33,878 bases of DNA from Chloroflexota bacterium. GTDB taxonomy: Bacteria > Chloroflexota > Dehalococcoidia > Lucifugimonadales > VXLM01. Under the pieces are notes generated by a model, which was not told the origin of the DNA, ran no database searches, and saw nothing but the letters and a program-made list of their open reading frames with translations. The stretch's first letter is position 1. The number at the start of each line of letters is the position of its first letter. The stretch spans positions 1 to 33,878 of the forward strand of contig JAPOPA010000305.1 of the NCBI GenBank assembly GCA_026713145.1, given 5' to 3'. Positions 3,973 through 33,617 of this stretch are shown here, one piece after another. A program made the translations under genes and the position numbers.

Positions 3973-4311
3973 ATGGAACTAAACGTTGAACGTGATGGCG
4001 GCACCGTAGTTGTAGGAGCAGGGGAACGGATTGACGGCACCAACGCCCGTGAATTCCAAAGTGCCCTCGAAGCTGCAATCGAAGAGACGGATCGTGCCGT
4101 GATTTTGGATCTAGCGGACCTTACCTACATCAGCAGCGCGGGTCTCCGGGCCATCCTCATGACTGCCAGGTCGCTTCGAAGACAGGACGCCGCACTTGCG
4201 GTCTGTTCCCTTACGGACTCCGTCCGTGAGGTCTTTGAGATTAGCGGATTCAACCAGATCATCCCCGTCCACTCCTCTAAGGACGAGGCGGTCGCTGCGC
4301 TTAACGGCTGA
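3973..4311 (+). CDS. STAS-domain anti-sigma factor antagonist (RsbV/SpoIIAA-like)
   Basis: 112 aa; LDLADLTYISSAGLRAIL contains the conserved phosphorylatable Ser motif. Confidence 0.93.
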   Translation: MELNVERDGGTVVVGAGERIDGTNAREFQSALEAAIEETDRAVILDLADLTYISSAGLRAILMTARSLRRQDAALAVCSLTDSVREVFEISGFNQIIPVHSSKDEAVAALNG

Positions 4312-4399
4312 TTCCTCCCGTAGACCTTCGTGCTTGTCGGGAACACCGCGCTGTAGTGGTGTATCACAGACCTTGATGTGAAGGCAGGGGACAGGAGCA

Positions 4400-4864
4400 A
4401 TGGCAGCACTGCACCGGATTTTGATCGTTGACGACGAACCTGATCTTGAGCCGTTGATACTACGACGCATGCGGCGCAAGATCAGGGCAGGGCTCTATGA
4501 GTTCCTTTTTGCTGCGAACGGAGTGAAGGCCCTCGAAGTTCTGAATGAACGTCCGGACATTGACATTGTCATCTCCGATATCAACATGCCGGAAATGGAC
4601 GGCCTCACCTTGCTGGAGCAGATACGGAAAGTCGACCCCAACATTCGGGCAATCATCGTATCTGCGTATGGTGACATGAAGAATATCCGCACGGCGATGA
4701 GGAGAGGCGCGGTAGATTTCATAACCAAGCCTATCGACTTCGAAGACTTCGAGGAAACTCTCGAACGGACGATAATTCAACTTAGAGAATGGAAGGTAGC
4801 GCTCCTTGCCCGAGACACCATGGTGTCCTCCCAATCGGAGAGCAATCCTGCTGCCGGTGCATAA
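4400..4864 (+). CDS. Response regulator, stand-alone receiver domain
   Basis: ILIVDDEPDLEPLIL...VISDINMPEMDG...VSAYGD...FITKP, with intact acidic pocket, phospho-Asp, Thr/Ser and Lys positions. Confidence 0.95.
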   Translation: MAALHRILIVDDEPDLEPLILRRMRRKIRAGLYEFLFAANGVKALEVLNERPDIDIVISDINMPEMDGLTLLEQIRKVDPNIRAIIVSAYGDMKNIRTAMRRGAVDFITKPIDFEDFEETLERTIIQLREWKVALLARDTMVSSQSESNPAAGA

Positions 4865-4910
4865 AGCGCAAGTCGGTGAAATGAGACTTGAAAGTGAAGC
4901 GTGAGTCACA

Positions 4911-6083
4911 GTGGTGGTGAAAAAGCCTTACCGGATTCTCGTTGTCGACGATGAGCCGGATCTCGAGCCGCTGATATTGCAGCGCATGAGACGAAAGATT
5001 CGGTCCGGTTCATACAGCTTCGAGTTCGCCCGCAACGGCGTCGAAGCACTCGAAATGCTGAACATCCATCAAGACATCGATATGGTGGTCTCGGACATCA
5101 ACATGCCGCAGATGGACGGACTTACTCTTTTGGAACAGATTCCGAAAGTCGACCCCGACATTCGCTCCATAATAATTTCGGCCTACGGCGACATGAAGAA
5201 TATTCGCACGGCGATGAACCGTGGCGCCTTCGATTTCGTTACCAAGCCGCTCGACTTCGAGGACCTGCAGGTCACAATAGACCGTACTCTTCGCCACCTC
5301 GAGGAGTGGCGCGAGGCGCTAGCGTCGCGCGATAAGCTTGTCGCCCTGCAAAACGAGCTCGACGTTGCGAGCAGCACCCAACAGTCGATCCTGCCGAAGG
5401 TGTTCCCTCGAAGTGCCGATTACCAAGTCTTTGGCCACATGGAGCCTGCCCGAAATGTTGGGGGCGATTTCTACGACGTTATCCGGTTGGAGGGCGGACG
5501 CATCGGTCTGGCCATAGCGGATGTCTCCGACAAGGGCGTGCCCGCAGCGCTGTTTATGATGTCCAGCCGTACGCTCCTGAAGGGCGCGGCTATCGGCACG
5601 GCAGATCCAGGCGAGGCTTTGCGCGAAGTCAACGAGCTGCTGTACGAAGAGAATGAGACCATGATGTTCGTCACCGTGCTCTACTCTATCTACAACCCGG
5701 AGACCGGGCGGCTGACGTACTCCAACGGCGGACATGATGCGCCGATGCTCGTACGATCGGATGGAAGTTCGGAACTCCTGCCGCTCACCGGAGGAGTCGC
5801 ACTTGGCGTTGCTCCGGATCTCGATTTTCCGAGCAGCACGGTAGACCTGGCACATGGCGACACCATTTTGCTCTACACCGACGGCATCACCGAGGCGATG
5901 AACGCTGATGGTGAACAGTTCGGAGTCGGGCGAATGCACGAGGTGTTCGCGGAGAATCCGCCGGAGAACTCGGAGCAGGCCGCCAAAGCTATGTTCGAGG
6001 CAGTGAAGGAATTTGTGGGAGACACCCCGCAGTCAGATGACATCACCTGTCTGGTAGTCCGACGCCACGAGGAAAGCTCGTGA
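4911..6083 (+). CDS. Response regulator with C-terminal PP2C/SpoIIE (RsbU-like) phosphatase
   Basis: N-terminal receiver (VVDDEPDLEP...SDINMPQMDG...TKP). C-terminal GGDFYDV, IADVSDKGVPAALFM, DTILLYTDGITEAMN and QSDDITCLVVR motifs. GTG start. Confidence 0.96.
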   Translation: MVVKKPYRILVVDDEPDLEPLILQRMRRKIRSGSYSFEFARNGVEALEMLNIHQDIDMVVSDINMPQMDGLTLLEQIPKVDPDIRSIIISAYGDMKNIRTAMNRGAFDFVTKPLDFEDLQVTIDRTLRHLEEWREALASRDKLVALQNELDVASSTQQSILPKVFPRSADYQVFGHMEPARNVGGDFYDVIRLEGGRIGLAIADVSDKGVPAALFMMSSRTLLKGAAIGTADPGEALREVNELLYEENETMMFVTVLYSIYNPETGRLTYSNGGHDAPMLVRSDGSSELLPLTGGVALGVAPDLDFPSSTVDLAHGDTILLYTDGITEAMNADGEQFGVGRMHEVFAENPPENSEQAAKAMFEAVKEFVGDTPQSDDITCLVVRRHEESS

Positions 6084-6499
6084 ACGAAACAATCGTCATT
6101 AATAGACTGGCCACGGAGGACGAACTCGAGGGAATCCTCGATGCGGTGGAAGACTTCGGAGAACGCCAGGACTGGCCACTCGCAGTGACCTTCAAGGTGA
6201 AGCTCGCCATCGAGGAGTTGGGACTCAACGTCGCTAAACACGGGCGAGTCGACAAGATTCCCGACCTTGAGATAACGGTCACCTCTCAACCGGAAGTACT
6301 CACAATAGATATCGAAGATGACGGGCGAGCGTTCGACCCGCTGAACGATGCGCCCGAGCCAGACTTGACATCTCCTATTGAAGACCGTCCAATTGGCGGG
6401 CTCGGCATCCACTTCGTTCGCGAGATGATGGATGAGATGACGTATCGCCGCGTGGACGGTAAGAACTGCTTGGCGCTAACCTTACGAAGAGTTGAGTGA
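6080..6499 (+). CDS. RsbW-type anti-sigma factor / serine kinase (HATPase_c_2)
   Basis: KLAIEELGLNVAKHG (N box), IEDDGRAFDP (G1) and GGLGIHFVREMMDEMTYRR (G2). GTG start overlaps the previous stop (GTGA). Confidence 0.92.
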   Translation: MNETIVINRLATEDELEGILDAVEDFGERQDWPLAVTFKVKLAIEELGLNVAKHGRVDKIPDLEITVTSQPEVLTIDIEDDGRAFDPLNDAPEPDLTSPIEDRPIGGLGIHFVREMMDEMTYRRVDGKNCLALTLRRVE

Positions 6500-7773
6500 G
6501 TCCAATGTTCGGTTGGCTTGGGGCTAGGGCTGCGAAGCTGGGGGTCGCGGGAGCCGTGACCCTCGCCTTAAATGTGGGAGCTGCCGGCTGCTTCATCTTT
6601 GATGACGGGGGTGAAGAGCCTACTGCCCCAAGCGGTCAAGTTGACCCCACCGCCCCTACTTTCGAGTCCTCCTCTCGACAGACTGACGGCGTCGCCGCCG
6701 ATCGTGTCCTGTTCGGGCAGTCCGCGGCGTTTACCGGACCGGCCCAAGAGCTTGGCAGGAACATGCGTCTCGGAATTCAGGCCGCATTCAACGAGGTCAA
6801 CCAGCGCGGCGGAGTCCACGGACGAAGGTTAGAACTGTCATCGCTCGATGACGCCTACGAGCCGGAGGCCGCGGTCACGAACACCATACGCCTTATCGAA
6901 CAGGACAGAGTGTTCGCGCTGATAGGTGAGGTAGGCACCCCGACATCGCGCTCGGCCACTCCGGTCGCGGCGGACGCTGAGGTCCCCTTTGTTGCTCCCT
7001 TCACGGGCGCCGAATTCCTGCGACATCCGGAATGGAACAATATCATCAATTTACGTGCGTCCTACTATCAGGAGACCGAGGAGATGGTCGCCCGCCTAAC
7101 GACGGATTCGGGTATAGACCGCATATCCGTGTTGTACCAGGACGACTCCTTTGGTCGTGCTGGACGAGACGGTGTCCAGATAGCACTCGATCGGCGTGGC
7201 ATGAAGCCTGCCTCCATAGGGCTGTATCCGCGCAATACGACTGCCGTAAAGACGGCCTTGCTCGACCTCATGCAGGGCGATCCCGAGGCTGTGATCATGA
7301 TTGGGGCTTATGAGCCGGTGGCGGCGCTCATTGAATGGGCGCGGCACACGGGGCTTGATCCTGTATTCATGACGGTTTCCTTTGTCGGCAGCAACGCCTT
7401 GGCGAGAGAGTTGGGTCCTGTCGGTGAGGGAGTCTACGTGACGCAAGTGGTACCCTTCCCGACAGACGACTCGGTGCCAATCGTCTCATCTTACTTGAAG
7501 GCGCTGTCCAGCTTCGCGCCTGATGCCATTCCCGGCTTCGTTTCTCTTGAAGGCTATCTTGCGGGCCGCCTTGCCATTGCAGCTCTTGAGGGCTGCGGTG
7601 CAGATGTCAATAGGTCCTGTTTCCTCGACAGCTTGCGCAGCGCCGACGTCATCGACATAGACGGATTCGAGCTCGTCTACGGGCAAGGCGATAACCAGGG
7701 ATCGGATGCCGTATTCCTTACCACGATAGGCAGTGACGGGACTTACCGGCCGGTAGAGACACTTCGGGACTAG
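6496..7773 (+). CDS. Lipoprotein periplasmic binding protein, type I fold (Leu/Ile/Val-binding / TorT-like)
   Basis: Signal peptide with lipobox (LALNVGAAGC). VLFGQSAAFTGPAQELGRNMRLGIQAAFNEVNQRGGVHGRRLELSSLDDAYEP is typical of the LivJ/LivK-like family. Overlaps the upstream CDS by 4 nt. Confidence 0.93.
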   Translation: MSPMFGWLGARAAKLGVAGAVTLALNVGAAGCFIFDDGGEEPTAPSGQVDPTAPTFESSSRQTDGVAADRVLFGQSAAFTGPAQELGRNMRLGIQAAFNEVNQRGGVHGRRLELSSLDDAYEPEAAVTNTIRLIEQDRVFALIGEVGTPTSRSATPVAADAEVPFVAPFTGAEFLRHPEWNNIINLRASYYQETEEMVARLTTDSGIDRISVLYQDDSFGRAGRDGVQIALDRRGMKPASIGLYPRNTTAVKTALLDLMQGDPEAVIMIGAYEPVAALIEWARHTGLDPVFMTVSFVGSNALARELGPVGEGVYVTQVVPFPTDDSVPIVSSYLKALSSFAPDAIPGFVSLEGYLAGRLAIAALEGCGADVNRSCFLDSLRSADVIDIDGFELVYGQGDNQGSDAVFLTTIGSDGTYRPVETLRD

Positions 7774-7777
7774 AGCC

Positions 7778-10018
7778 GTGAACGAGAGAGTACAACGCCT
7801 TTTCGAGAGCCGGTTCCGCATCGCAACCCAACTCTACGCGGGGATCGGAGGGGCCGTTGTCCTGACGGTTGGGGCCAGCCTCGTCGGCTGGTTTTCCTTC
7901 AACAGCGTGGGGGGAGCTCAGAGCCAGGTAAACGAAGAGAGTATCCCTGAGGTAGTGGCGGCATTCGGTGTCGCCCAGCACAGCGGCACGCTGGTGGATG
8001 CGGCTCCACGACTGATGGCTGCCACGAACCCCGGAGACTTGGCGCAGGTCTCGGCAAGCGTGGACGAGGCCCGCGAGAACCTCGAGGCAAACCTTGCCGA
8101 CCTTCTGGGAGGTGAGTCGTCGAACGACAACGGCGCAGTCGAAGGCCCCGGCCCGTCTGAGATTTCGGGACAGGGGGATGCACCAGAAGTCGGACGCTCG
8201 ACGCGCATCCGCGACAGTGTTGACATGCTGATCGTCAACATCAATGCCATTAGAGAGGACATGACAAGGCTCTATGAGCTGAACGTCCGCAGGGACGCAC
8301 TTCGAAGGGATCTCGAACAGCTGCGGGAAAAAATGGATGAAGTCATGGTCCCGGTCGTTGACGACCAACTCTTCTACACCATGACGGGTTACGAAAGTCT
8401 CGACACGTCGCCGGTAGCCCGCGAGGAACACTTCACGGAGACTGAGCTTGCCCGCTACCGCAACTTGGCCGGGCTTCACGCGGACGCCACAACGGCAAAC
8501 CAGCTGCTTGAGGGCGCGTTCTCCATATCATCCGCACCACTTCTGGAACCCCTGCGCGAACGTTTCGAGTCCGCAATCGGCAGCATCGAGCGCAGTGTTA
8601 CCGCCCTTACCGGTTCGCCGCTTCACGATGAGATAACTCCACTGACCACCCAGTTGTTGGACTTGGGTACAGGAGACGACAACGGCTTCGATTTGTTGGA
8701 AGAGCGGCTCCAACTCATACGGCATCAGCAAGACCTCTTAGAGCTAAACAGCGATATTGCCCTTGAGCTAGTCATCGATGTCAATTCGCTCGTGGACTCC
8801 GCGCGCACCAGTGCGGATGAGGCCACACAGGCCTCGTCGCAGGCGATATTTACCGGCAGAACACTACTGCTGGCCATCAGCGGGGTAGGTGTGGCTGGGG
8901 CCATCCTCATCTCTTGGCTCTTTGTCGGACGCGTAATTGTGCGTCGCATCCAATTGCTTTCGAATTGGATGCTGCGAATGGCAGGCGGCGACCTCGAAAC
9001 ACAAGTCGAACTCGGCGGGCGCGATGAGGTCGCGGACATGGCGGACGCACTGGAGGTGTTCCGCCGCCACGCACTCGAAGTGCAACGCCTGAACCTCGTA
9101 GAGCAACTGGCGGAAGAGCTGCAGGGTAAGAACGACCAGTTGGAAAGCGTGCTCGCCGACCTCCGCAAGGCACAGGAACAGATCGTCATGCGGGAGAAGT
9201 TGGCCGCGCTCGGCGAGCTAACTGCCGGCGTCGCCCATGAGATCAAGAACCCACTCAATTTCGTCAAGAACTTCTCCGAATCATCCAACGAACTACTGGA
9301 TGAACTGAAGGAAGTCCTGGATGAGAACGCGAACAAGATAAGCGAGGAAGACCAAAATTACATCAAGGAAATTTCAGGCGATCTCAATAGCAACCTTGAT
9401 CGGATCATTGCGCATGGCGAGCGCGCCAACCGCATCGTTCAGGACATGCTGATGATGGGCCGAGAGACGGGCGAAGAGCGCCCCACCGACATCAACGTTC
9501 TGCTGGATGAACACGCCCGGCTGGCCTACCACAGCGCGCGCGCAACCGATCCGGACTTCCAACTCCACATCGAACAGGAACTGGGCCCGGACGTGGGAGA
9601 GATCGTCGTCAAACCGCAGGACATCGGAAGAGTATTCTTGAACATCGTCGGCAACGCCTGCGACGCAACGGACGAGAAGCGGCGTAAGCTCCACGAATCA
9701 GGTGATAAGTCCTACATGCCGACGCTGTCGCTATTCACCAGCCGTGACGAGGAGAGTATCGCAGTCCGCATCAGGGATAACGGAGACGGAATACCCCCGG
9801 ACGTTGCCGACAGGATTTTCAACCCCTTCTTCACGACCAAACCCACCGACCGGGGAACAGGACTCGGCCTTGCCATCACCAACGACATCGTTCGTCAGCA
9901 CGGCGGCTCCATCTCAGTTAACTCTCAGCCCGGCGAGTTCACTGAGATGTTAGTAAGGCTTCCACTGGAGCCCACCCAGGCAGTTGGCCCGGCGGACGAA
10001 GAACTGCCTGTCGGCTAG
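7778..10018 (+). CDS. Sensor histidine kinase: TorS-like periplasmic helical sensor, HAMP, HisKA, HATPase
   Basis: TM helices near the N terminus and before HAMP (GRVIVRRIQLLSNWMLRMAGGDLETQVELGGRDEVADMADALEVFR). H box ELTAGVAHEIKNPLNFV; NIVGNACDAT; IRDNGDGIP; GTGLGLAI. Confidence 0.95.
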   Translation: MNERVQRLFESRFRIATQLYAGIGGAVVLTVGASLVGWFSFNSVGGAQSQVNEESIPEVVAAFGVAQHSGTLVDAAPRLMAATNPGDLAQVSASVDEARENLEANLADLLGGESSNDNGAVEGPGPSEISGQGDAPEVGRSTRIRDSVDMLIVNINAIREDMTRLYELNVRRDALRRDLEQLREKMDEVMVPVVDDQLFYTMTGYESLDTSPVAREEHFTETELARYRNLAGLHADATTANQLLEGAFSISSAPLLEPLRERFESAIGSIERSVTALTGSPLHDEITPLTTQLLDLGTGDDNGFDLLEERLQLIRHQQDLLELNSDIALELVIDVNSLVDSARTSADEATQASSQAIFTGRTLLLAISGVGVAGAILISWLFVGRVIVRRIQLLSNWMLRMAGGDLETQVELGGRDEVADMADALEVFRRHALEVQRLNLVEQLAEELQGKNDQLESVLADLRKAQEQIVMREKLAALGELTAGVAHEIKNPLNFVKNFSESSNELLDELKEVLDENANKISEEDQNYIKEISGDLNSNLDRIIAHGERANRIVQDMLMMGRETGEERPTDINVLLDEHARLAYHSARATDPDFQLHIEQELGPDVGEIVVKPQDIGRVFLNIVGNACDATDEKRRKLHESGDKSYMPTLSLFTSRDEESIAVRIRDNGDGIPPDVADRIFNPFFTTKPTDRGTGLGLAITNDIVRQHGGSISVNSQPGEFTEMLVRLPLEPTQAVGPADEELPVG

Positions 10019-13257: not shown

Positions 13258-15504
13258 ATGTCCCTAACTCGAAGACAATTCTTGACCCTTATGGGTGGTT
13301 CGGCCACCGCGGTGGCCGCCGCGGCATGCGGCGTTCCCGAAAGGGAACTGCTCGTCCAGTCGCCTATCGAGATGCCCGAGGACATGGTTACCGGCCTCGA
13401 CAACTGGTACGCGACGATTGACCGGCAGAATCGCGCTCCCCTAGGCGTAGTCGTGAGGGTTATGGAGGGCCGCGCGAAGAAAGTCGAGGGCAACGTCGAC
13501 TATCCGGTCAACCGCGGCAAGCACAACGCCGTCGCCGAGGCAGGACTGCAGGGCCTCTACCACCCCGACCGCATCGGCTCGCCCCTGATCCGTACGGGTC
13601 AGCGCGGCGAGGGTAAGTGGGAGCAGCTTAGCTGGACAGACGCCGTCTCCCGCGTGGCCGAGCGACTAGGGGAATTGAGCGGTGAAGAGACCGTTTTCAT
13701 CACGAACCCTGTCAGCGCGCACACGGGGCTGGTCGTGAACCGGTTCGCTGAGGCGCTCGGCGCGAAGCACATGAGCTATGAGCCTCTCGAACGCACCGTG
13801 CTGAAGGCCTCAATGAAGCAGGTATTCGACCAGGAGGCAATGCCCGACTTCGATATCGAGAATGCGGCGTATATCCTGTCGTTCGGCGCGGACTTCCTGA
13901 ACACGTGGGAGTCTCCGGTCCGGTACGCCCGCGGCTACGGCCACTTCCGTCAGGGCGAAAATAGGAGTCGCGGCAAGCTTGTCCACTTCGATTCCCGCTT
14001 TTCGATGACCGGGGCTAACGCCGACGAGTGGGTCTACGTCAAACCCGGCTACGAAGGTGAGGTGGCTCTTGCCATCGCGAACGTCATGATCTCCGCTGGA
14101 CTGCCGGACTCGCCCGCGCTCCATAGGATCACGGGACAAGGCTCGAATAGTTTGGAGAGCTTCACTCCCCAAGCGGTCGGTAGCCGCGCGGGAGTCGATC
14201 CGGAAAAGATCGTCAGGATAGCTCGCGACTTCTTGGAGCACCCTCCTGGGCTCGCCATAGGCGGCGGCTCGGCCGGGGCCCATTCGAATGGGCTGTTCAA
14301 CCTCAACGCGATCTACGCCCTTAACTATCTGTCGGGGAGCGTGGACCAACTCGGAGGGATCACCTTCAATCCCTCTCCGCCAATTAGCGACCTTCCGACC
14401 GCGCCCGACGCAACCTCATTCTCGGATTTCCGGGACCTTGCGGGCCGGATGTCGGGAGGACAGGTCAAGGCGCTTCTCGTACGCAATGCGGACCCGTTCT
14501 ATGGCCTTCCGGAGAATACGGGAATCACACGGGCCAGCTTCAATGTGCCACTCATCGTCAGCTTCTCGAACCGTTTCGACGACACGACGATGCTGGCGGA
14601 CATAATTCTGCCTGAGAACCATTATCTCGAGGACTGGGGAACGGATATCCCCGATCCCGGCCCCGGCTACCAGACGATTGGCTTCCAGCAGCCGGTCGTC
14701 CGACCCTTCTTCGAGTCGAGAGGGCCTCACCTTGGGACGAAGAACTTCGGCGATGTGCTGATGACACTGGCACAGGTGCTGGAAAAGGACCTCGGTCTCG
14801 ACGCCGACAACTTCAAAGGACTCATGGAGAATGACGCCCGCAGACTGCGAGAACTGGACCGCGGTTCCGTTCGCGCGGCGAACGACAAGCTGTTCTGGAA
14901 CACCATCCTCCAGCGTGGCGGCTGGTGGGACACGAACGCGAGTGGAGATATTCACGACCCCCGGTCGGGCCAGTATTCGTTTCCGACGGCTGCCCAAGCG
15001 CCCTCGACGGGAGGCAGTGGAGAATTCCACCTCATGCCGTTCGAGACTACCGGGCTGACGGACGGCCGAGGCGCGGACCTTCCGTGGCTGCAGGCAACGC
15101 CCGACCCGATCACGACGGCCACGTGGCAGACGTGGGTCGAGATCAACTTGAAAAAGGCCGAGGAGATGGGAATTAACGAGGGTGACGTGGTTAAGGTGAC
15201 CTCGGAGCAAGGCTCGATCGAGGCGCTCGCTTACCCCCATCCCGGTATCTCGCCCGACGTGGTGGCGATACCGGTCGGACAGGGACACAAGGGCGGCGGA
15301 CGCTACTCGAAGGACCGGGGAGCGAACGTGCTGTCGATCCTCTCGCCGGTCACCGAAAGCGAGACGGGAGCACTGGCGTGGGCGGCGACACGTGTAAATC
15401 TACGGCGCACGGGCGAATGGATCCGTCTGCCGAAGTTCGAGAACACAGCGCCCGACCTCGCCGAAGACGGACATCGCCGGATAATCCCGCTGACATCAGG
15501 GTAA
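13258..15504 (+). CDS. actB1: ACIII subunit B, molybdopterin-oxidoreductase-like domain
   Basis: Tat-like TRRQFLTLMGG signal. Molybdopterin oxidoreductase fold signatures (GLYHPDRIGSPLIRTGQRGEGKWEQLSWTDAVSRVAERL; MLADIILPENHYLEDWGTD). No N-terminal CxxC iron-sulfur motif. Confidence 0.93.
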   Translation: MSLTRRQFLTLMGGSATAVAAAACGVPERELLVQSPIEMPEDMVTGLDNWYATIDRQNRAPLGVVVRVMEGRAKKVEGNVDYPVNRGKHNAVAEAGLQGLYHPDRIGSPLIRTGQRGEGKWEQLSWTDAVSRVAERLGELSGEETVFITNPVSAHTGLVVNRFAEALGAKHMSYEPLERTVLKASMKQVFDQEAMPDFDIENAAYILSFGADFLNTWESPVRYARGYGHFRQGENRSRGKLVHFDSRFSMTGANADEWVYVKPGYEGEVALAIANVMISAGLPDSPALHRITGQGSNSLESFTPQAVGSRAGVDPEKIVRIARDFLEHPPGLAIGGGSAGAHSNGLFNLNAIYALNYLSGSVDQLGGITFNPSPPISDLPTAPDATSFSDFRDLAGRMSGGQVKALLVRNADPFYGLPENTGITRASFNVPLIVSFSNRFDDTTMLADIILPENHYLEDWGTDIPDPGPGYQTIGFQQPVVRPFFESRGPHLGTKNFGDVLMTLAQVLEKDLGLDADNFKGLMENDARRLRELDRGSVRAANDKLFWNTILQRGGWWDTNASGDIHDPRSGQYSFPTAAQAPSTGGSGEFHLMPFETTGLTDGRGADLPWLQATPDPITTATWQTWVEINLKKAEEMGINEGDVVKVTSEQGSIEALAYPHPGISPDVVAIPVGQGHKGGGRYSKDRGANVLSILSPVTESETGALAWAATRVNLRRTGEWIRLPKFENTAPDLAEDGHRRIIPLTSG

Positions 15505-15526
15505 GGGGAAACGGAGCCGGAGCAAT

Positions 15527-16276
15527 ATGGCAAGTACGAATACGCAATGGGGAATGGTGATTGATGTCGACAAGTGCATCGGCTGTCAGGGATGCGTTGT
15601 CGCGTGTCAGTCCGAGAATAATATCCCCATAAACACCGAGGACCTCTTCAACCAGCGTCGAGCAATCGAGTGGATTCGTGTCGAGCGCTACTGGGAGGGC
15701 GAGTTCCCGGACGTCAAGGCGCGGTTCATTCCAATTCTGTGCCAGCACTGCAACGACGCTCCCTGCGAGCCGGTCTGTCCCGTGTTCGCCACGTACCACA
15801 ACAACGAGGGCATGAACGTGCAGGTGTACAACCGCTGTATCGGTACGCGGTTCTGCGCCAACAACTGCCCATACCACGTCCGGTTCTTCAACTTCTGGGA
15901 GCCGGAGTGGCCGGAGACTCTGACGAACCAGCTCAACCCGGATGTGACCGTGCGCAGTCGCGGGATCATGGAGAAGTGCACATTCTGCATACAGCGCATT
16001 CGCCGCACGAGTCGAGAGGCCGCGCGCGACGGCGAGGAGCTGTCCGACGACTCACGCGAGTTGAACCCGGCCTGCGTAAACGCATGTCCAACGGATACCC
16101 TGTTCTTCGGCGACTTGAATGACCCGGACAGCAAGGTCGCGAAGCTGGCGAAGGAAGAGATGAGTGATGACGGACGCGGCTACCACCTGATGCCGCAGTA
16201 CGGGACATCGCCCAACGTGATTTATCTGAAGAAGGTGGATGAGTCCACCAAGGATTCCAACGGCTCACATGAATAA
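15527..16276 (+). CDS. actB2: ACIII subunit B, 4Fe-4S ferredoxin-type protein (separate gene)
   Basis: CIGCQGCVVAC, CQHCNDAPCEPVCP, CIGTRFCANNCPYHVRFFNF, CTFCIQRI and CVNACPTDTLFFGDL, typical of the PsrB/ActB iron-sulfur part. Confidence 0.94.
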   Translation: MASTNTQWGMVIDVDKCIGCQGCVVACQSENNIPINTEDLFNQRRAIEWIRVERYWEGEFPDVKARFIPILCQHCNDAPCEPVCPVFATYHNNEGMNVQVYNRCIGTRFCANNCPYHVRFFNFWEPEWPETLTNQLNPDVTVRSRGIMEKCTFCIQRIRRTSREAARDGEELSDDSRELNPACVNACPTDTLFFGDLNDPDSKVAKLAKEEMSDDGRGYHLMPQYGTSPNVIYLKKVDESTKDSNGSHE

Positions 16277-17654
16277 CGGTGCACATAACGGGCACGGCGC
16301 GCTGATGACGCCTAAAGCCGTTGAGGACGACCTCCTCGACAAGGGCAGGCTGCGCGGCTCGACGTTCCGCATAGCGGTGATAGTCTTCGCCGTCCTGTCG
16401 GTTCTGGGGGTCGTCGGGTTCGTGATCCGCCTGGCCGACGGGTTCGGCAACACTCCCGTTTGGGGATACCACGCAGCCCTGTTCGCGTTCATCCTGACGG
16501 CGGCGCAGGGCGCTCCGATGGTGGCCATCGCCCCAAGGATTGCCAACGCCCACTGGCGGCGCTCGATATCCCGCGTCGCCGAACTCTTCAGCCTCGTGGG
16601 TATCGTGAGCTTCGTCATCTACATCCCCGTCGCGTGGGCCCTGCCCAGCATGGAGGACGGCAGGCGAACATTGTGGTTCTACGGTGAGCTCAATATGCCC
16701 GCACACATGCCGGAGATCACGACGACGCTCGTCCTCCTGGCGCTTACGGTCAACGGCCTCTGGCTATTGTGGGTGTCGGCGATGCCCGACTTCGCCATGC
16801 TGCGCGACCGATCGACCGGGAAGAAAAAGGTCTGGTTCAGCCGTCTTGCCCGAGGCTGGGTCGGAACGTCCGGGCAGTGGAACTGGCAAAAGCATCGGCT
16901 GGGCATCCTGGGGGCGTTCTACTTTATGATGCTGGTGACGGCCCACTTCGCATTCAGCTTGGACTTTGGCATGTCGCTGGTGCCCGGCTGGATAGACGCC
17001 CTGTACCCGGCCACACACGCCCACAACTCGCTGCAGGCCGGGGTGGCGATCACGCTAATCACGATGTACGTCTTGTACCGCTTCGGCGGCTACAAGGACT
17101 ACATCAATCTCGACCAATTCTGGGGCTTGGGCAAACTCCTGTTTTCCTTGTCGCTCCTGTGGTTTTGGTTTTGGTTCTCCAGCTTCATCATTTTCTGGTT
17201 CGGCGCGAAGCCTTCCGAGGAGGCGGTGCTCGACCTGCTCTTCGTAGGGCCGTATTTGCCAATATTCTTCATTGTATTCACGTTCGCGTTTCTCGTCCCA
17301 CTGTGGGCGATGATCTGGAACCCGCTGCGGAAGAGTGTGTGGGGGCCCGTCACTATCGCTTGTGGCGTGTTGATCGCGACGTTATTTGACCGAATCCGCG
17401 TCTATGTCGCGGCATTCTCTGTCTCGGAATCGACGAACAAGCACCTGATGGTTGAGATACCCGGCGCCGTGCTGCCCGACGTAGCGGACGTGCTCATATG
17501 GGTGGGCGGCATCTCCGCCTGTATCCTCATCTACATGCTGGGGACGAGGATCATCCCGCCGATAAACATCTGGGAACAGAAGGAAGTATTGCTGTACCGC
17601 ATCCACAAGCCGTTCCACCGGACCGAAGTGCAGGTGCTGGGCAAGCCGGAGTAG
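16269..17654 (+). CDS. actC: ACIII NrfD/PsrC-like integral membrane subunit C
   Basis: Multi-TM polysulfide reductase NrfD-like protein. The ATG at 16269 overlaps the previous stop and is more plausible than the listed 16239 start. Confidence 0.88.
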   Translation: MNNGAHNGHGALMTPKAVEDDLLDKGRLRGSTFRIAVIVFAVLSVLGVVGFVIRLADGFGNTPVWGYHAALFAFILTAAQGAPMVAIAPRIANAHWRRSISRVAELFSLVGIVSFVIYIPVAWALPSMEDGRRTLWFYGELNMPAHMPEITTTLVLLALTVNGLWLLWVSAMPDFAMLRDRSTGKKKVWFSRLARGWVGTSGQWNWQKHRLGILGAFYFMMLVTAHFAFSLDFGMSLVPGWIDALYPATHAHNSLQAGVAITLITMYVLYRFGGYKDYINLDQFWGLGKLLFSLSLLWFWFWFSSFIIFWFGAKPSEEAVLDLLFVGPYLPIFFIVFTFAFLVPLWAMIWNPLRKSVWGPVTIACGVLIATLFDRIRVYVAAFSVSESTNKHLMVEIPGAVLPDVADVLIWVGGISACILIYMLGTRIIPPINIWEQKEVLLYRIHKPFHRTEVQVLGKPE

Positions 17655-17673
17655 CTCGGCAGAACACAGAGCC

Positions 17674-19050
17674 ATGCAAGAACACGTTCAGCTAACACAG
17701 AAACAGATCAACGACGACCTCCTAAGCTCGGTGCTACACACGCCGAGGTGGTGGTGGCCGGCCGTGATCGTCACGGGAATAATCTTCCTGACCGGCATGG
17801 GCGCCTTCGGCTACATGCTCAACCAGGGAGTCGGAGTGACCGGCCTCAACCGCCCCGTGTTCTGGGGCGCTTATATGGTCAACTTCGTGTTCTTCATCGG
17901 CATCAGCCACGCTGGGATCATGATCTCGGCCATCCTGCGGCTCACCCAGGCGGAGTGGCGGCGTCCCGTTACTCGCGCTGCCGAGGTGCTGACGGTCTTC
18001 TCGCTCATGTCCGCGCTGATGGCCGCGCCGCTGGTGCACGTCGGCCGTCCCTGGCGTGCCGATCTGTGGGTATTCCCTTACGACTTCGCGCGCGGCATCT
18101 GGATCAACATCAGGTCCCCGTTCATCTGGGACCCAAGCGCCGTGATGACCTACCTGACGGCGAGTTCGCTGTTCGTCTTCATCGCGCTGATCCCCGACCT
18201 GGCTGTTATACGAGATAGGGCCAGTGGGTATACACGGAAGTTCTACGCGTTGATGGCAATGGGCTGGAGGGGCACGCCACGCCAGTGGAAGCTCCAGGCA
18301 ATCGCCGGAATTCTGCTGTCGGCCTTGGTATTGCCGGTCTTCGTCTCGGTCCACAGCATCGTGTCGTGGGACTTCGCGGTGCAGATCGCGCCGGAAGCGT
18401 GGCACTCGACCATTTTCGCTCCCTATTTCATCATCGGCGCGATCCACTCCGGCGTCTCCGCGGTGGCAACCCTCATGGTCATCATGGTCTGGGTATGGGG
18501 ATGGGACAAGTACCTCAAACCTGATCACCTCGACGCCATCGGGAGGCTGCTCATCATCGTGGCGACGACGTGGTTCTTCTTCTTCTTCCTGGAGTGGGTC
18601 TTCGCGCTCTATACGCTGGAGGACGCCGAGCTTGCGATGCGCGACCTCCAAGTGTTCCAGTGGCCGTGGAGCGGGCTGTTCATCCTGTTCCTCGTAACGG
18701 CCTACTTCATTCCGGTGCCCATGTGGCTGTTCAAGAGCATCCGGCGAAGCTATTTCTGGATGTTCGTTACAACGATCCTGGTCAACATCGGGATGTGGCT
18801 CGAACGCTTCCTCATCATCGTGCCGGGCACGATGAGGCGCGGCGAGTTCATCTTCGACTGGGGCAGCTACCATCCGAGCATCATAGAGATTTTGATGGTG
18901 ATAATGACGTTCGCCTGGGTCGTCCTGGGTATGTTGGTATTCACGAAGCTGTTCCCGCTCATCCCGCTCTTCGACATCAAGGAGGGGATGGTGGGACGCG
19001 ATGAGATACGAATCGGCAGGCGGATAGTACCCGCCTCGATAAGAGAGTAA
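17674..19050 (+). CDS. actF: ACIII second NrfD/PsrC-like integral membrane subunit
   Basis: RPVFWGAYMVNFVFFIGISHAGIMISAILRLTQAEWRRPVTRAAEVLTVFSL...SPFIWDPSAVMTYLTASSLFVFIALIPDLAVIRDR, NrfD-family pattern. Confidence 0.88.
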   Translation: MQEHVQLTQKQINDDLLSSVLHTPRWWWPAVIVTGIIFLTGMGAFGYMLNQGVGVTGLNRPVFWGAYMVNFVFFIGISHAGIMISAILRLTQAEWRRPVTRAAEVLTVFSLMSALMAAPLVHVGRPWRADLWVFPYDFARGIWINIRSPFIWDPSAVMTYLTASSLFVFIALIPDLAVIRDRASGYTRKFYALMAMGWRGTPRQWKLQAIAGILLSALVLPVFVSVHSIVSWDFAVQIAPEAWHSTIFAPYFIIGAIHSGVSAVATLMVIMVWVWGWDKYLKPDHLDAIGRLLIIVATTWFFFFFLEWVFALYTLEDAELAMRDLQVFQWPWSGLFILFLVTAYFIPVPMWLFKSIRRSYFWMFVTTILVNIGMWLERFLIIVPGTMRRGEFIFDWGSYHPSIIEILMVIMTFAWVVLGMLVFTKLFPLIPLFDIKEGMVGRDEIRIGRRIVPASIRE

Positions 19051-19064
19051 CGCGAGGTGATGCT

Positions 19065-19589
19065 GTGGCACTGCGAAGCGTCATAGGTCTGTACACGGAT
19101 GAGGACACGGCGGCGAACGCGCTCGACGCGGTAGCGGGCGCTGGCTACGGTCAGGGCGAGTACGAGATACTCACGGGAACGCCATACCCCGAGGGCACGT
19201 TCGGCGAAGAGGAGCCGGTGCACAAGCTCTACAGGTTCCCGCTGATCGGCGCGGCCTGCGGGTTCACGGTCGGCCTGCTGCTCACCACCGCCACCCAGCT
19301 TGCCTACCCGCTGGTCGTCGGCGGCAAGCCGCTGCTGTCGATCCCGCCGATGGCGATCATCATGTACGAAGGGACGATGCTTGGGGCCATTCTCTTCACG
19401 GTCGTTGGGATCATCTTCGAGTCGAGGTTGCCGCGCATGTTCATGGGAGCCTACGACACCCGCATTACCGAGGGCTACATCGGCATCACGATCACGGCGG
19501 ACGAGTCCAAGATGGAACACGCCGAAGAGACGCTTAAGAAAGCCGGGGCCGAGGAAGTCAAGCGGGGCTGGGAGCAGACCGATTTCTAA
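19065..19589 (+). CDS. actD: ACIII subunit D (DUF3341-like)
   Basis: 174 aa; two TM segments embedded in an alpha/beta sequence (VIGLYTDEDTAANALDAVAGAGY...YRFPLIGAACGFTVGLLL). GTG start. Confidence 0.85.
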   Translation: MALRSVIGLYTDEDTAANALDAVAGAGYGQGEYEILTGTPYPEGTFGEEEPVHKLYRFPLIGAACGFTVGLLLTTATQLAYPLVVGGKPLLSIPPMAIIMYEGTMLGAILFTVVGIIFESRLPRMFMGAYDTRITEGYIGITITADESKMEHAEETLKKAGAEEVKRGWEQTDF

Positions 19590-19625
19590 CTATTCTGAAC
19601 GCTGGACGACACGATAGAGCCAAGA

Positions 19626-20255
19626 TTGATGCATCGAAATTCGCGCCATATTGCAGCAGTTGCCCTCGCGGTGATCATGTCACTGTTTGCCATGGGGTGC
19701 TACAACGCCAAGTCGGGCGACACCGAGGTGTACGGCATAGCCAGGTTCAAGCTGCCCGTGGTCCCGGAGACTGGATCGCACAGGGTGATGGTCTTCTCCG
19801 AGATGCACTACCAGCCCAAGTTCGATTCGCAGGAAGTGCCGCGATTGCTTCCCGCGCAGGGCTCCGTTCCCATAACCGGGCGGGAGCCGCAGTACGATTC
19901 CCTCGACGAGTACAGGGAAGCTGCCATGCCCGAGCAAATTGCTCAGGGGTACGATCGGGCACACGCGGCGGAACTGTATAACGTCAACTGTCAGGTCTGT
20001 CACGGTGTGGGACTGGCCGGTGACGGACTCGTCGTGCCCTTCATGACCCGGGGCGTGGTACCGGCGAATCTCAATAGCGACGCAACTCAGAACTCATCCG
20101 ACGGGGAGTTGTTCGCCTTCATTGGCGAGGGAGGCCGTCAAGGGTACGCCCTCATCGAAGCCGGTCAGCCGTCAAACTCCCCGATGCCCGCTTTCAAGTA
20201 CCTGCTGTCCGAAGAAGAGCGCTGGGCACTGGTCAAGTTCCTCCGGGGCGAGTAA
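19626..20255 (+). CDS. actE: Monoheme cytochrome c lipoprotein, ACIII subunit E
   Basis: Lipobox (LFAMGC), the ActE-like motif MHYQPKFDSQEVPRLLPAQGSVPITG, and one CQVCH heme site. Confidence 0.87.
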   Translation: MMHRNSRHIAAVALAVIMSLFAMGCYNAKSGDTEVYGIARFKLPVVPETGSHRVMVFSEMHYQPKFDSQEVPRLLPAQGSVPITGREPQYDSLDEYREAAMPEQIAQGYDRAHAAELYNVNCQVCHGVGLAGDGLVVPFMTRGVVPANLNSDATQNSSDGELFAFIGEGGRQGYALIEAGQPSNSPMPAFKYLLSEEERWALVKFLRGE

Positions 20256-30166: not shown

Positions 30167-32110
30167 TCAGGCGCTGCCCTCGACCTGGACCGTGACGATA
30201 TCCACGCCGTGGAACTTCTGGTGGCGCACGGCGGAGGTGTGGTGCCGCAACAGCCGGAGCGAAAGGTCGTCGAAGGTTGGTACGGCGGTTTCGTCGGCCA
30301 GATACGCCAAGAGGTCCTCGACGTTCTCCTTTCGCGTCGTGGCGACGAACTCCAATTCCACCATCGTCCCCTGTGGTCTTGCGTTGATGATCAGGCGGGG
30401 ATGCTCCGAACTGTCAGCATCGTCCTCCCGCGCCTGCAGGCTGGCGAGCGTCTCTTCTCCGGCTGCGCGCAGCCGGAGAGTAGAGGTCTCGTTCCACCCG
30501 AGTCTGGATGAAAGTCCGGTAAGAAACTCATCGATCGCAGGGAGCGAGTCCATGTCCAACGTGACCTCGAGACGCGACCGGCGCAAGCTGACCGCCTCGA
30601 GCAGGAGCGTCATGCCGACCGCAACCACAGCCCCGATCGTGACTCCATTGCCGAGCAGTCCACCAATCTCATCTCCAAAGACGTCCCCAATGATGGAGTG
30701 ATCGTGGAGCCCCAGGCCCAGTGCGCTGGCGAGCGCGACCACCAGTACGCGCTTGGGATCGAGGCCGTCGCGCAGGATCGTCTGCCAGCCGCTCACGAAG
30801 AGCATACCCATGGCGAGCATCAGGTAAGCACCCAAGACCGGACCGGGAATCATCAGCAGAAGGGCGGCAAGTTTTGAGAAGAAGGCCAGCACTACTATGA
30901 CGATTGCCACACCGATGCCGATTCTACGGGCGGCGACGCCAGTGAGGTTGATCAGCGAGAGACTGAATGAGGAATAGGACATCGGCGGAAGTGTGCCTGA
31001 GATGCCCGCAAACAACATGCCAATGCCGTTGACGCTCACCATGCCCTGGATCTGGCGGAAATCTATCGCTCGCGACCGTCGTCTGGATCCCTGCTGGATC
31101 GCAACACCGTCGCTGATGGTCTTGATCCCGATAACGAGAGTGAGGATCGCGAACGAGGGTAAGAGTGCCCAGAATTCCTTGCCGGGCGTTAGATCGAAAC
31201 TCAGAGGCGGAACTTTGGGGATGCCGAACCATCCGGCGTTAATGATGCGGTCCGCGTCGATCAGACCGAATGCGGCGGCGACTGCGCAGCCGGCCAGTAT
31301 GCTGATGAACGGACCCACGAGACGCCAGCGCCCGCTGGCGTACAGGGTAACGATGACCGAGACCAGCAGCGTTGTTCCGGCGACCAACGGACCCGAGACC
31401 GGAGCCGCGCCGTCGGGCAGGTCCTGAACGCTGTCGAAGGCGATGGGCAGCACGCTGACGGCGATCAGCATAGTCACCGTCCCCGTGACGACCGGCGTGA
31501 ATATGCGGCGTAGCGTTGGCAGCCACCAGGCGAGCGCTACTTGGACCACACAGCAGACAACCAGAAGGCTCATGAACGTGGATAGCCCGGCCGCCGAGAT
31601 CGTCGCCACCATGATCGCGATGAACAGCGCTGCAGGACAGGTGAGTACAATATGGCCGGCGCCGAACCGCCACATCTGGAACGCTTGCAGCGCCGTGATC
31701 CCCGCGCTGACCAGCAGTGCCGCGAAGACACTCCACGTCAAATAGGTGTCGTCGAGCCCGGACGAGCGAATCGCGACCGCCACATTCAACACCGTCGGCG
31801 CAAGTATGAGCGCGGCGCCCTGAAATCCAACCACCAGCGTGGTCGACAGAGAACAGGACTCCTCGGGCTCAAACCGTATAGGCTGTTCGGCGCTACCAGC
31901 AGTCAATTGGTTAACCAATCTCCCACTCTTGCAGGCTGACACTCCAATGACCTGACCATACCACACGCAAAACCTGCCCGTTACTCCCTGGGCGGTTTTC
32001 CTGCGACAAATGGTAATCTTCGCCAAGATAGGCACATGTGCCCCTGTCGGCCGCGAGTCCTGCGGAGCGCCAAGGCGGGAGCACCGAGAGCACCGTCTGC
32101 GTCGGCACAC
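30167..32110 (-). CDS. NCS2-family (xanthine/uracil permease-like) transporter with C-terminal degenerate RsbW-like domain
   Basis: NCS2-like multi-TM core (TTLVVGFQGAALILAPTVLNVAVAIR...FAGISGTLPPMSYSSFSLSLINLTGVAARRIG...), then about 150 aa soluble tail ending TFDDLSLRLLRHHTSAVRHQKFHGVDIVTVQVEG. The real start is probably downstream of the listed one, e.g. around 31950. Confidence 0.85.
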   Translation of the reverse strand: MCRRRRCSRCSRLGAPQDSRPTGAHVPILAKITICRRKTAQGVTGRFCVWYGQVIGVSACKSGRLVNQLTAGSAEQPIRFEPEESCSLSTTLVVGFQGAALILAPTVLNVAVAIRSSGLDDTYLTWSVFAALLVSAGITALQAFQMWRFGAGHIVLTCPAALFIAIMVATISAAGLSTFMSLLVVCCVVQVALAWWLPTLRRIFTPVVTGTVTMLIAVSVLPIAFDSVQDLPDGAAPVSGPLVAGTTLLVSVIVTLYASGRWRLVGPFISILAGCAVAAAFGLIDADRIINAGWFGIPKVPPLSFDLTPGKEFWALLPSFAILTLVIGIKTISDGVAIQQGSRRRSRAIDFRQIQGMVSVNGIGMLFAGISGTLPPMSYSSFSLSLINLTGVAARRIGIGVAIVIVVLAFFSKLAALLLMIPGPVLGAYLMLAMGMLFVSGWQTILRDGLDPKRVLVVALASALGLGLHDHSIIGDVFGDEIGGLLGNGVTIGAVVAVGMTLLLEAVSLRRSRLEVTLDMDSLPAIDEFLTGLSSRLGWNETSTLRLRAAGEETLASLQAREDDADSSEHPRLIINARPQGTMVELEFVATTRKENVEDLLAYLADETAVPTFDDLSLRLLRHHTSAVRHQKFHGVDIVTVQVEGSA

Positions 32111-32159: not shown

Positions 32160-33617
32160 CTACTCAAACCCGAACAGCGGGGGAAAGACAACGACCACAA
32201 CCCCTGCCCACACGGCGTACACGGGCAAGTAGTTGCCCTGCCAGCGCACGAGGGCCGAGAACTCGCTTCTCCCTGCCAGAAACCGCGCGTAGAGCCACGC
32301 AGACCACACTAGGTTGCCAAACAGCACGAGGTTCCCACCCAACGCCGCTGTTCTGTTCGGTGTGAAGCCGAACTCGGAGATGCGTCCCACAATCGCTGAG
32401 AGCACCATGAGGTCGGCTGCGATGACGGCCACCACGAGGATCACTTGCATCGCGTCGAAGATACCGGGGCGTGCCTGAGGGTCGCGCGCCGAGATGGAGA
32501 ACAGCAGCATCCCGAGCACCAAGGCCAGCATGATATCGAAGCCGATAAGCATGTCGCGGTCCATGTCGACCCACTCGCCCGTAAAGACCATGGCCGCCAG
32601 GAAAATGGGGAGCATAGCGGCGAACAACGGCGTAAACACACGGGAGAGCATGGGCGCGATGTTTTGCGCGACGCCTTGTCGTGTCTCCACCAGCCACGCG
32701 CCTACGAGTACGGCCCCCATCGCTCCACACGGCAGCACCCATTCGGCTATGAAGTCTCCAATTTCAAGGCTGATGGCCTCGAACATGGCCCAAGTCAGAA
32801 GCGAGAATACGCTGCCTCCGAGTGCGATGAGCACGTAGTAGATGAACAACTCGCCGGTGAACCGCACGAAGTCCGTGCGCCGCTCGACGGAACGCCAGTC
32901 ACCTCCTACAAAGGCGAGCCCTACAACCAGCCATAAGGCGAAAGGCAGGTGGATCGCCGTCAGCGACTCGGTATGCGCTCCTTGCTTGAATGGGAAGATA
33001 TTGGCGAAGACAGCTGCCGCGACGAACGGTAGGAAAAGCCAAATCGATGCCCGTCCGGTTAGCCTTCGCTTCCAAGCAAAGTAGCCCGCGAGCATCGGCA
33101 GCACGAAGAGACTGAGATTCCGCGCGTATACTGCTTCGCCGTCGATGAGCCGGTAGCCGAATAGCTCGGGTACCTTTATCGCCAGCGCCGCAGCGATAGC
33201 TAGGCCAATGACGACGCCAAACTCAGTACGTGCGCTCCTCGCGCTTGTAACTGGAATGGCATCCGGCACGAGCAGCCCCAACATCCGCCCCCGGAACGGC
33301 AGCTCGATTTCACCTTCAACAGCGCCAGCGGGGTCGGGTACGCGTCGTTCCCATTGCTGCCCGAAGTGCTCAAGCGCAAAGTCGCGAGAGACGGGGTCGG
33401 TCTCTCCGACCCGTCTGACTGCTATGAGGAAGGCCTCGTCTTCCGTGAGGTTCGCGTCCCTTAGCGCGGCCACCTGTTCGCGTAGGAGACCCTCATGCTC
33501 TTCTACGTCAACGGCCCCATGACGGCGCAGGTGCACTCGCCATTCTGCAATGAGGCCCTCCAGCGTGCCTTCGCTAGTGTTAGGCATTCCTCGTTTGGCA
33601 CATCCCTTGCGCTGCAT
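32160..33617 (-). CDS. Polytopic membrane protein with N-terminal soluble prefix (permease-prefix-like; DUF4153-like C-terminal part)
   Basis: N-terminal EWRVHLRRHGAVDVEEHEGLLREQVAALRDANLTEDEAFLIAVRRVGETDPVSRDFALEHF, then about 10 hydrophobic segments including ISEFGFTPNRTAALGGNLVLF. Confidence 0.65.
   Translation of the reverse strand: MQRKGCAKRGMPNTSEGTLEGLIAEWRVHLRRHGAVDVEEHEGLLREQVAALRDANLTEDEAFLIAVRRVGETDPVSRDFALEHFGQQWERRVPDPAGAVEGEIELPFRGRMLGLLVPDAIPVTSARSARTEFGVVIGLAIAAALAIKVPELFGYRLIDGEAVYARNLSLFVLPMLAGYFAWKRRLTGRASIWLFLPFVAAAVFANIFPFKQGAHTESLTAIHLPFALWLVVGLAFVGGDWRSVERRTDFVRFTGELFIYYVLIALGGSVFSLLTWAMFEAISLEIGDFIAEWVLPCGAMGAVLVGAWLVETRQGVAQNIAPMLSRVFTPLFAAMLPIFLAAMVFTGEWVDMDRDMLIGFDIMLALVLGMLLFSISARDPQARPGIFDAMQVILVVAVIAADLMVLSAIVGRISEFGFTPNRTAALGGNLVLFGNLVWSAWLYARFLAGRSEFSALVRWQGNYLPVYAVWAGVVVVVFPPLFGFE

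Follow-up and report, generated by a model that had tools for sequence, protein, structure and literature searches.

What is the soluble domain at the end of a permease whose family is not expected to have one, and what does it do? SLC23 (NCS2) proteins are said to hold no carboxy-terminal domain. In SLC26 proteins a short linker joins TM14 to a STAS domain, and deletion of this STAS domain impairs transport (PMC6497670). The gene considered here lies on the minus strand of the window (the whole 33,878-nucleotide stretch of DNA that was analysed). The first-pass annotation described it as an NCS2 permease fused to a degenerate RsbW-like domain, and this description is borne out by the Pfam match of the core, by the AF2 and Foldseek results for the fold of the tail, and by hhalign profiles. 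As modelled, the architecture is almost certainly that of a permease followed by an RsbW-like (GHKL, HATPase_c_2-type) tail.

The gene and its transport domain

The gene encoding the SLC23/NCS2-type permease with its RsbW-like tail is placed at 30167..31918 (minus strand) on the basis of its open reading frame, Pfam PF00860, 45 relatives and paralogues in the same genome. The open frame reaches back to a GTG at 32110, which would give 647 aa; the start codon is uncertain because likeness to the relatives sets in only near 31905. It is probably a TTG or GTG around 31951-31905. The gene had earlier been drawn at 30167-31960. The minus-strand frame is real and contains the permease, but position 31960 reads TAT, which is not a start codon. 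The tail sequence quoted at that stage is present letter for letter in the translation.

Pfam Xan_ur_permease (PF00860) covers residues 41-418 (E=2.2e-38; 132 bits against a cut-off of 27). In the full-length AF2 model (mean pLDDT 83; alignment of 41 divergent members), residues 38-457 of the translated protein P0001 (30590..31849, minus strand) form a 14-TM transport domain with a predicted UraA/UapA fold, including the short strands in TM3 and TM10. The best Foldseek matches of the membrane part are UapA (5i6c, 1.5e-15) and UraA (8omz, 1.6e-15); SLC26 proteins come next. The permease thus shares with UraA, XanQ and UapA the PF00860 domain, the 14-TM fold with its TM3/TM10 strands, and the NAT-type Asp after the TM8 position. 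It differs from them in having a C-terminal domain and, in the main group of the family, in the replacement of the TM8 Glu by Lys.

This replacement bears on the cargo. In a phmmer alignment to UraA, Lys280 (31121..31123, minus strand) occupies the position of Glu241, the nucleobase-binding substrate carboxylate of TM8, and Asp284 aligns with UraA His245 and is kept in 36/41 family members. Across the 41 members, the Glu241-equivalent is Lys in 28, Glu in 8, Gln in 4 and His in 1; a paralogue in the same genome (L056) keeps the Glu. The second substrate carboxylate of UraA, E290 in TM10, aligns with Ser, with a one-residue indel close by. With Lys in place of the TM8 carboxylate, the cargo of the Lys-type paralogues, which make up most Chloroflexota members, is probably something other than plain uracil or xanthine. 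Perhaps the Lys group carries anions; this idea takes its cue from a single residue swap. Tailed permeases with a TM8 Glu (L056, L106, L107, L109, L145, L111, L079 and L051) have ETIGD or ETVGD at this site, together with a UraA-like NTTY in TM10. The paralogue group with the classical Glu is likely to be nucleobase-type. We hypothesise from such residues that the tailed-permease family has diversified in substrate.

No conserved neighbour of the permease was found in the +-5 kb neighbourhoods of the 45 relatives, and gene context therefore gives no clue to pathway or substrate. The adjoining creatininase and HAD genes are not conserved with the permease. Directly upstream, on the same strand, a 485-aa membrane protein is encoded at 32160-33617; its N-terminus matches 'permease prefix domain 1' (NF038403) weakly, below the cut-off. 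Elsewhere in the window, 13258-20255 holds an Alternative complex III-like respiratory cluster (molybdopterin-type subunit, 4Fe-4S, NrfD, ActD and cytochrome c).

The fold of the tail and its ATP-binding boxes

The tail occupies residues 458-597 (30170..30589, minus strand) and is about 135 residues long. In the model TM14 extends to residue 457 and the tail opens with a strand at 462, leaving a linker of about 4 residues. The domain is therefore located where SLC26 carries its STAS domain, as had been proposed. Its predicted elements are strands (E) and helices (H) in the order E462-467, H470-487, H491-512, E522-530, E533-541, H547-556, H566-574, E577-583 and E586-594. An AF2 prediction made with 45 tails gives this E-H-H-E-E-H-H-E-E topology at a mean pLDDT of 78.6; the full-length prediction, made with the different alignment of 41 divergent members, repeats it. 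Model confidence drops to about 45-69 in the lid/G2 region.

Foldseek comparison of the tail model with the PDB gives 22 matches at E<=0.001, including B. subtilis RsbW, UsfX, SpoIIAB and the RsbW domain of Rv1364c. The best 19 of these 22 are anti-sigma complexes (top match 8ih8_C, 5.4e-8); the few remaining matches have RsbW-type domains or, in the case of 2 chains, come from an entry with the title LvrC response regulator. Against RsbW 6m37_C the TM-scores are 0.73/0.87. The predicted fold is thus RsbW-like and not a non-GHKL one, and none of the relatives identifies the tail as another known domain.

The sequence relationship is distant. No Pfam or NCBIfam model recognises the tail of the window permease by itself, phmmer and hmmsearch against PDB sequences return nothing significant, and pairwise BLAST against the RsbW encoded in the window yields no alignment at E<=100. 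When the 45 tails are run singly against Pfam, there is one weak HATPase_c_2 match (E=0.047). The likeness in layout that the first-pass annotation had drawn to the RsbW at 6080-6499 therefore went beyond the reach of ordinary sequence search. It holds at the level of fold and of profiles, but is invisible to pairwise BLAST and to Pfam/NCBIfam. In hhalign, a profile of 91 tails aligns with one of 29 true RsbW-type sequences at E=1e-5 and a probability of 82%, collinearly over 118 columns. Reversed tails and STAS, receiver (response-regulator) and PP2C profiles stay at background (0.05-2% probability); the STAS profile itself scores 0.15%, so the tail is not a C-terminal STAS domain of the SLC26 type. 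Pooling the Chloroflexota tails with proteobacterial ones (described below) raises the RsbW match to 8e-7 and 92% probability, with reversed and unrelated controls again at background. Chance likeness is ruled out by the reversed-profile and unrelated-family controls.

The RsbW encoded in the window (6080..6499, plus strand; Pfam HATPase_c_2, 1.8e-22) is canonical and serves for comparison: its N, G1 and G2 boxes are intact, with the invariant residues N50, D80, G82, G107 and G109. In the tail, the N-box-equivalent helix (residues 491-512; 30425..30490, minus strand) keeps Glu503, and Ser507 stands in place of the Asn. The strand before the G1-equivalent loop (residues 533-541, VELEFVATT; 30338..30364, minus strand) is followed by no DxGxG, and the G2-equivalent helix (residues 566-574, DLSLRLLRH; 30239..30265, minus strand) has no GxG. 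These replacements, which had been read from the single sequence, recur in the relatives. In 40/41 aligned sequences S, T, I or V stands where the N-box has its Asn, and the Chloroflexota tails listed show neither DxGxG nor GxG. The N-box Glu, which pairs with that of RsbW, is invariant (41/41); in SpoIIAB this Glu is the general base. All 41 aligned Chloroflexota-type members also share N546 and H580. With the Asn, DxGxG and GxG gone, ATP binding by the tail is unlikely, and we consider it very probable from the missing boxes that this ability has been lost. In summary, the tail shares with RsbW, SpoIIAB and UsfX (HATPase_c_2) the fold, the topology and the N-box Glu; it differs from them in lacking the other motifs, in being tethered to the membrane and in scoring below the Pfam cut-off.

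Relatives and distribution

A search of other genomes for the same architecture, suggested in the first-pass annotation, finds it in many Chloroflexota and some Proteobacteria. Relatives are encoded at 45 loci in public genomes, mostly metagenome-assembled genomes (MAGs) labelled Dehalococcoidia, SAR202 or Chloroflexi; identities are 65-84%, with one at 46%, and the sequences that extend as far as the C-terminus have the tail. The genome of the window has four more paralogues (33-48% identity), each with a tail, giving five copies. Among 201 sampled Chloroflexota genomes the tail is found in 21, most of which have 3-6 copies, and with few exceptions it forms the C-terminal part of a frame of roughly 520-720 aa. 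A Chloroflexota permease with an intact RsbW domain was also sought; the long frames with PF13581 that were read (L121-L124) show no permease. Over 820 pairs, mean identities of core and tail are 50.2% and 50.4% (r=0.88). The two track each other, so constraint on the tail is comparable to that on the permease.

Some copies and assignments deserve separate mention. Extra tailed-permease copies lie beside the main one at L020:2644-4707 and L045:7012-9072, which suggests tandem duplication; the extra frames seem to be composites, owing to a frameshift or to poor sequence (L045 has an X run). Family members also occur at L012, L027, L030 and L051, in MAGs that bear the labels Alphaproteobacteria, Acidimicrobiia and Opitutales. 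In the phyla to which the Opitutales and Acidimicrobiia MAGs belong, the tail was absent from the other genomes searched (0/194 and 0/246, respectively). Such members would represent either horizontal transfer or mis-binned contigs.

Divergent Alpha- and Gammaproteobacteria carry the permease with its tail as well. A plasmid tblastn search identified two SLC23 proteins, 568 and 595 aa long, on a plasmid of Candidatus Thiodictyon syntrophicum, with full-length relatives in Azospirillum thermophilum and Pseudoroseomonas cervicalis; RefSeq annotates these proteobacterial proteins as 'solute carrier family 23 protein' and does not mention the tail. The two Thiodictyon genes lie side by side and are divergently transcribed (L192:746-4755). 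One of their tails keeps a DYPGPG remnant resembling the G1 box, a feature seen only in Thiodictyon. By themselves the proteobacterial tails match RsbW in hhalign at 4e-5. One matches HATPase_c_2 over its whole length (E=0.0098) and another matches HPTransfase (E=0.0047), both below the Pfam cut-off. HPTransfase is the C-terminal domain of ChpT, a GHKL-like phosphotransferase without ATP binding. It thus offers a precedent for a GHKL domain that does not bind ATP; the tail differs from it in lacking the phosphotransfer His helix pair and in being attached to a transporter.

Whole-length profiles of the Chloroflexota and proteobacterial families are collinear across permease and tail (E=7e-48), but the two tail sets alone match each other weakly (probability 1.7%). 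One ancient fusion behind both families is therefore likely, though unproven. Derivation of the tail from the RsbW/SpoIIAB family, and joint evolution of permease and tail in several phyla, are supported.

The role of the tail

The tail is best read as a pseudo-GHKL domain with a regulatory or assembly role, attached to a secondary transporter of the SLC23/NCS2 fold and comparable to the STAS domain of SLC26 (probability roughly 0.6). It would act without ATP hydrolysis or phosphorylation, as a cytosolic protein-protein interaction module, and would stabilise the transporter dimer and/or set transporter activity, as STAS does on SLC26. The regulatory part of this reading is drawn by analogy with STAS. 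A role in dimerisation is not required, because NCS2 proteins dimerise without a tail. The tail looks like a counterpart of the human SLC26 STAS tail. SLC26/SulP proteins share with the window permease the class of 7+7 inverted-repeat fold and a cytosolic, regulatory-type domain directly after TM14; they differ in that the domain is STAS itself and not a member of the RsbW-like family that binds STAS, and the core of the permease matches SLC23 best.

The first-pass annotation had pointed to a STAS protein encoded in the window (3973..4311, plus strand; Pfam STAS, 1.5e-21) as a candidate partner of the tail. It opens a cluster (3973-10018) that runs on through a receiver, a response regulator-PP2C (SpoIIE) phosphatase (4911..6083, plus strand), the canonical RsbW, and a periplasmic binding protein (Peripla_BP_6) with a sensor histidine kinase (6496..10018, plus strand). 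If the tail mimics RsbW, it could be bound by the unphosphorylated STAS protein, and the sensor kinase and periplasmic binding protein would then control transport directly, in place of a sigma factor. Several observations speak for such an output. The cluster is collinear in 12/12 genomes examined, the free-standing receiver excepted, and its RsbW subfamily (at least 119 bits; next best score 91) occurs in exactly the 21/201 Chloroflexota genomes that have the tail. Genes for SigB/F/G sigma factors were absent from the genome of the window and two near-complete relatives, where only RpoD and ECF factors were found; the window-type RsbW therefore has no SigB-type target in these three genomes. 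STAS proteins with unknown non-sigma targets exist, such as SypA and RbaV (PMC8256260). Among 20 relatives with a patchy distribution, 7 have both tail and RsbW, 1 the tail only, 1 the RsbW only and 11 neither (Fisher p=8e-4, ignoring ancestry). Clade and genome size, however, confound this co-occurrence (p=0.024 when only genomes of at least 2.4 Mb are counted), which comes without a control gene and has exceptions: G412 carries the RsbW without the tail, and G416, which is 87% complete, carries the tail without the RsbW. Nor are the genes linked; the permease lies about 24 kb from the cluster in the window and does not adjoin it in the loci seen. The contact of RsbW/SpoIIAB with STAS is built around bound nucleotide, and the tail has lost the corresponding site. 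We therefore hold this reading to be unlikely. Much the same applies to its fuller form, a mirror image of SLC26 in which an SLC23 protein carries the STAS-binding (RsbW) fold and a sigma-free STAS/PP2C/RsbW switch competes for the tail and so controls nutrient transport; this would be a long shot.

The invariant residues allow another reading, in which the old nucleotide pocket has been remodelled to bind the cargo or a nucleotide, with the tail gating transport as a sensor. The N-box Glu, N546 and H580 would fit such a site, but the boxes of the pocket are lost, no known ligand-binding motif is present, and the proteobacterial tails do not show the HQK and ENxED motifs; a ligand sensor thus appears improbable. 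Loss of the enzymatic boxes would suit a structural remnant with a stabilising or folding role only. Such a remnant is hard to reconcile with a tail that is conserved like the transport domain down to about 33% identity and has several invariant residues, and it is the least probable of these readings.

A search of open-licence papers gave no account of a permease that carries an RsbW- or HATPase-type domain, which is weak evidence of novelty. SLC23 proteins have been described without soluble C-terminal domains, and the regulation of SLC26 by STAS is still debated. Under the preferred reading of a regulatory or assembly domain, the same membrane fold with the natural binding partner of STAS in the same place may amount to a second evolutionary experiment on cytosolic control. 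For orphan partner-switching systems, the tailed permease is also a candidate target other than a sigma factor.
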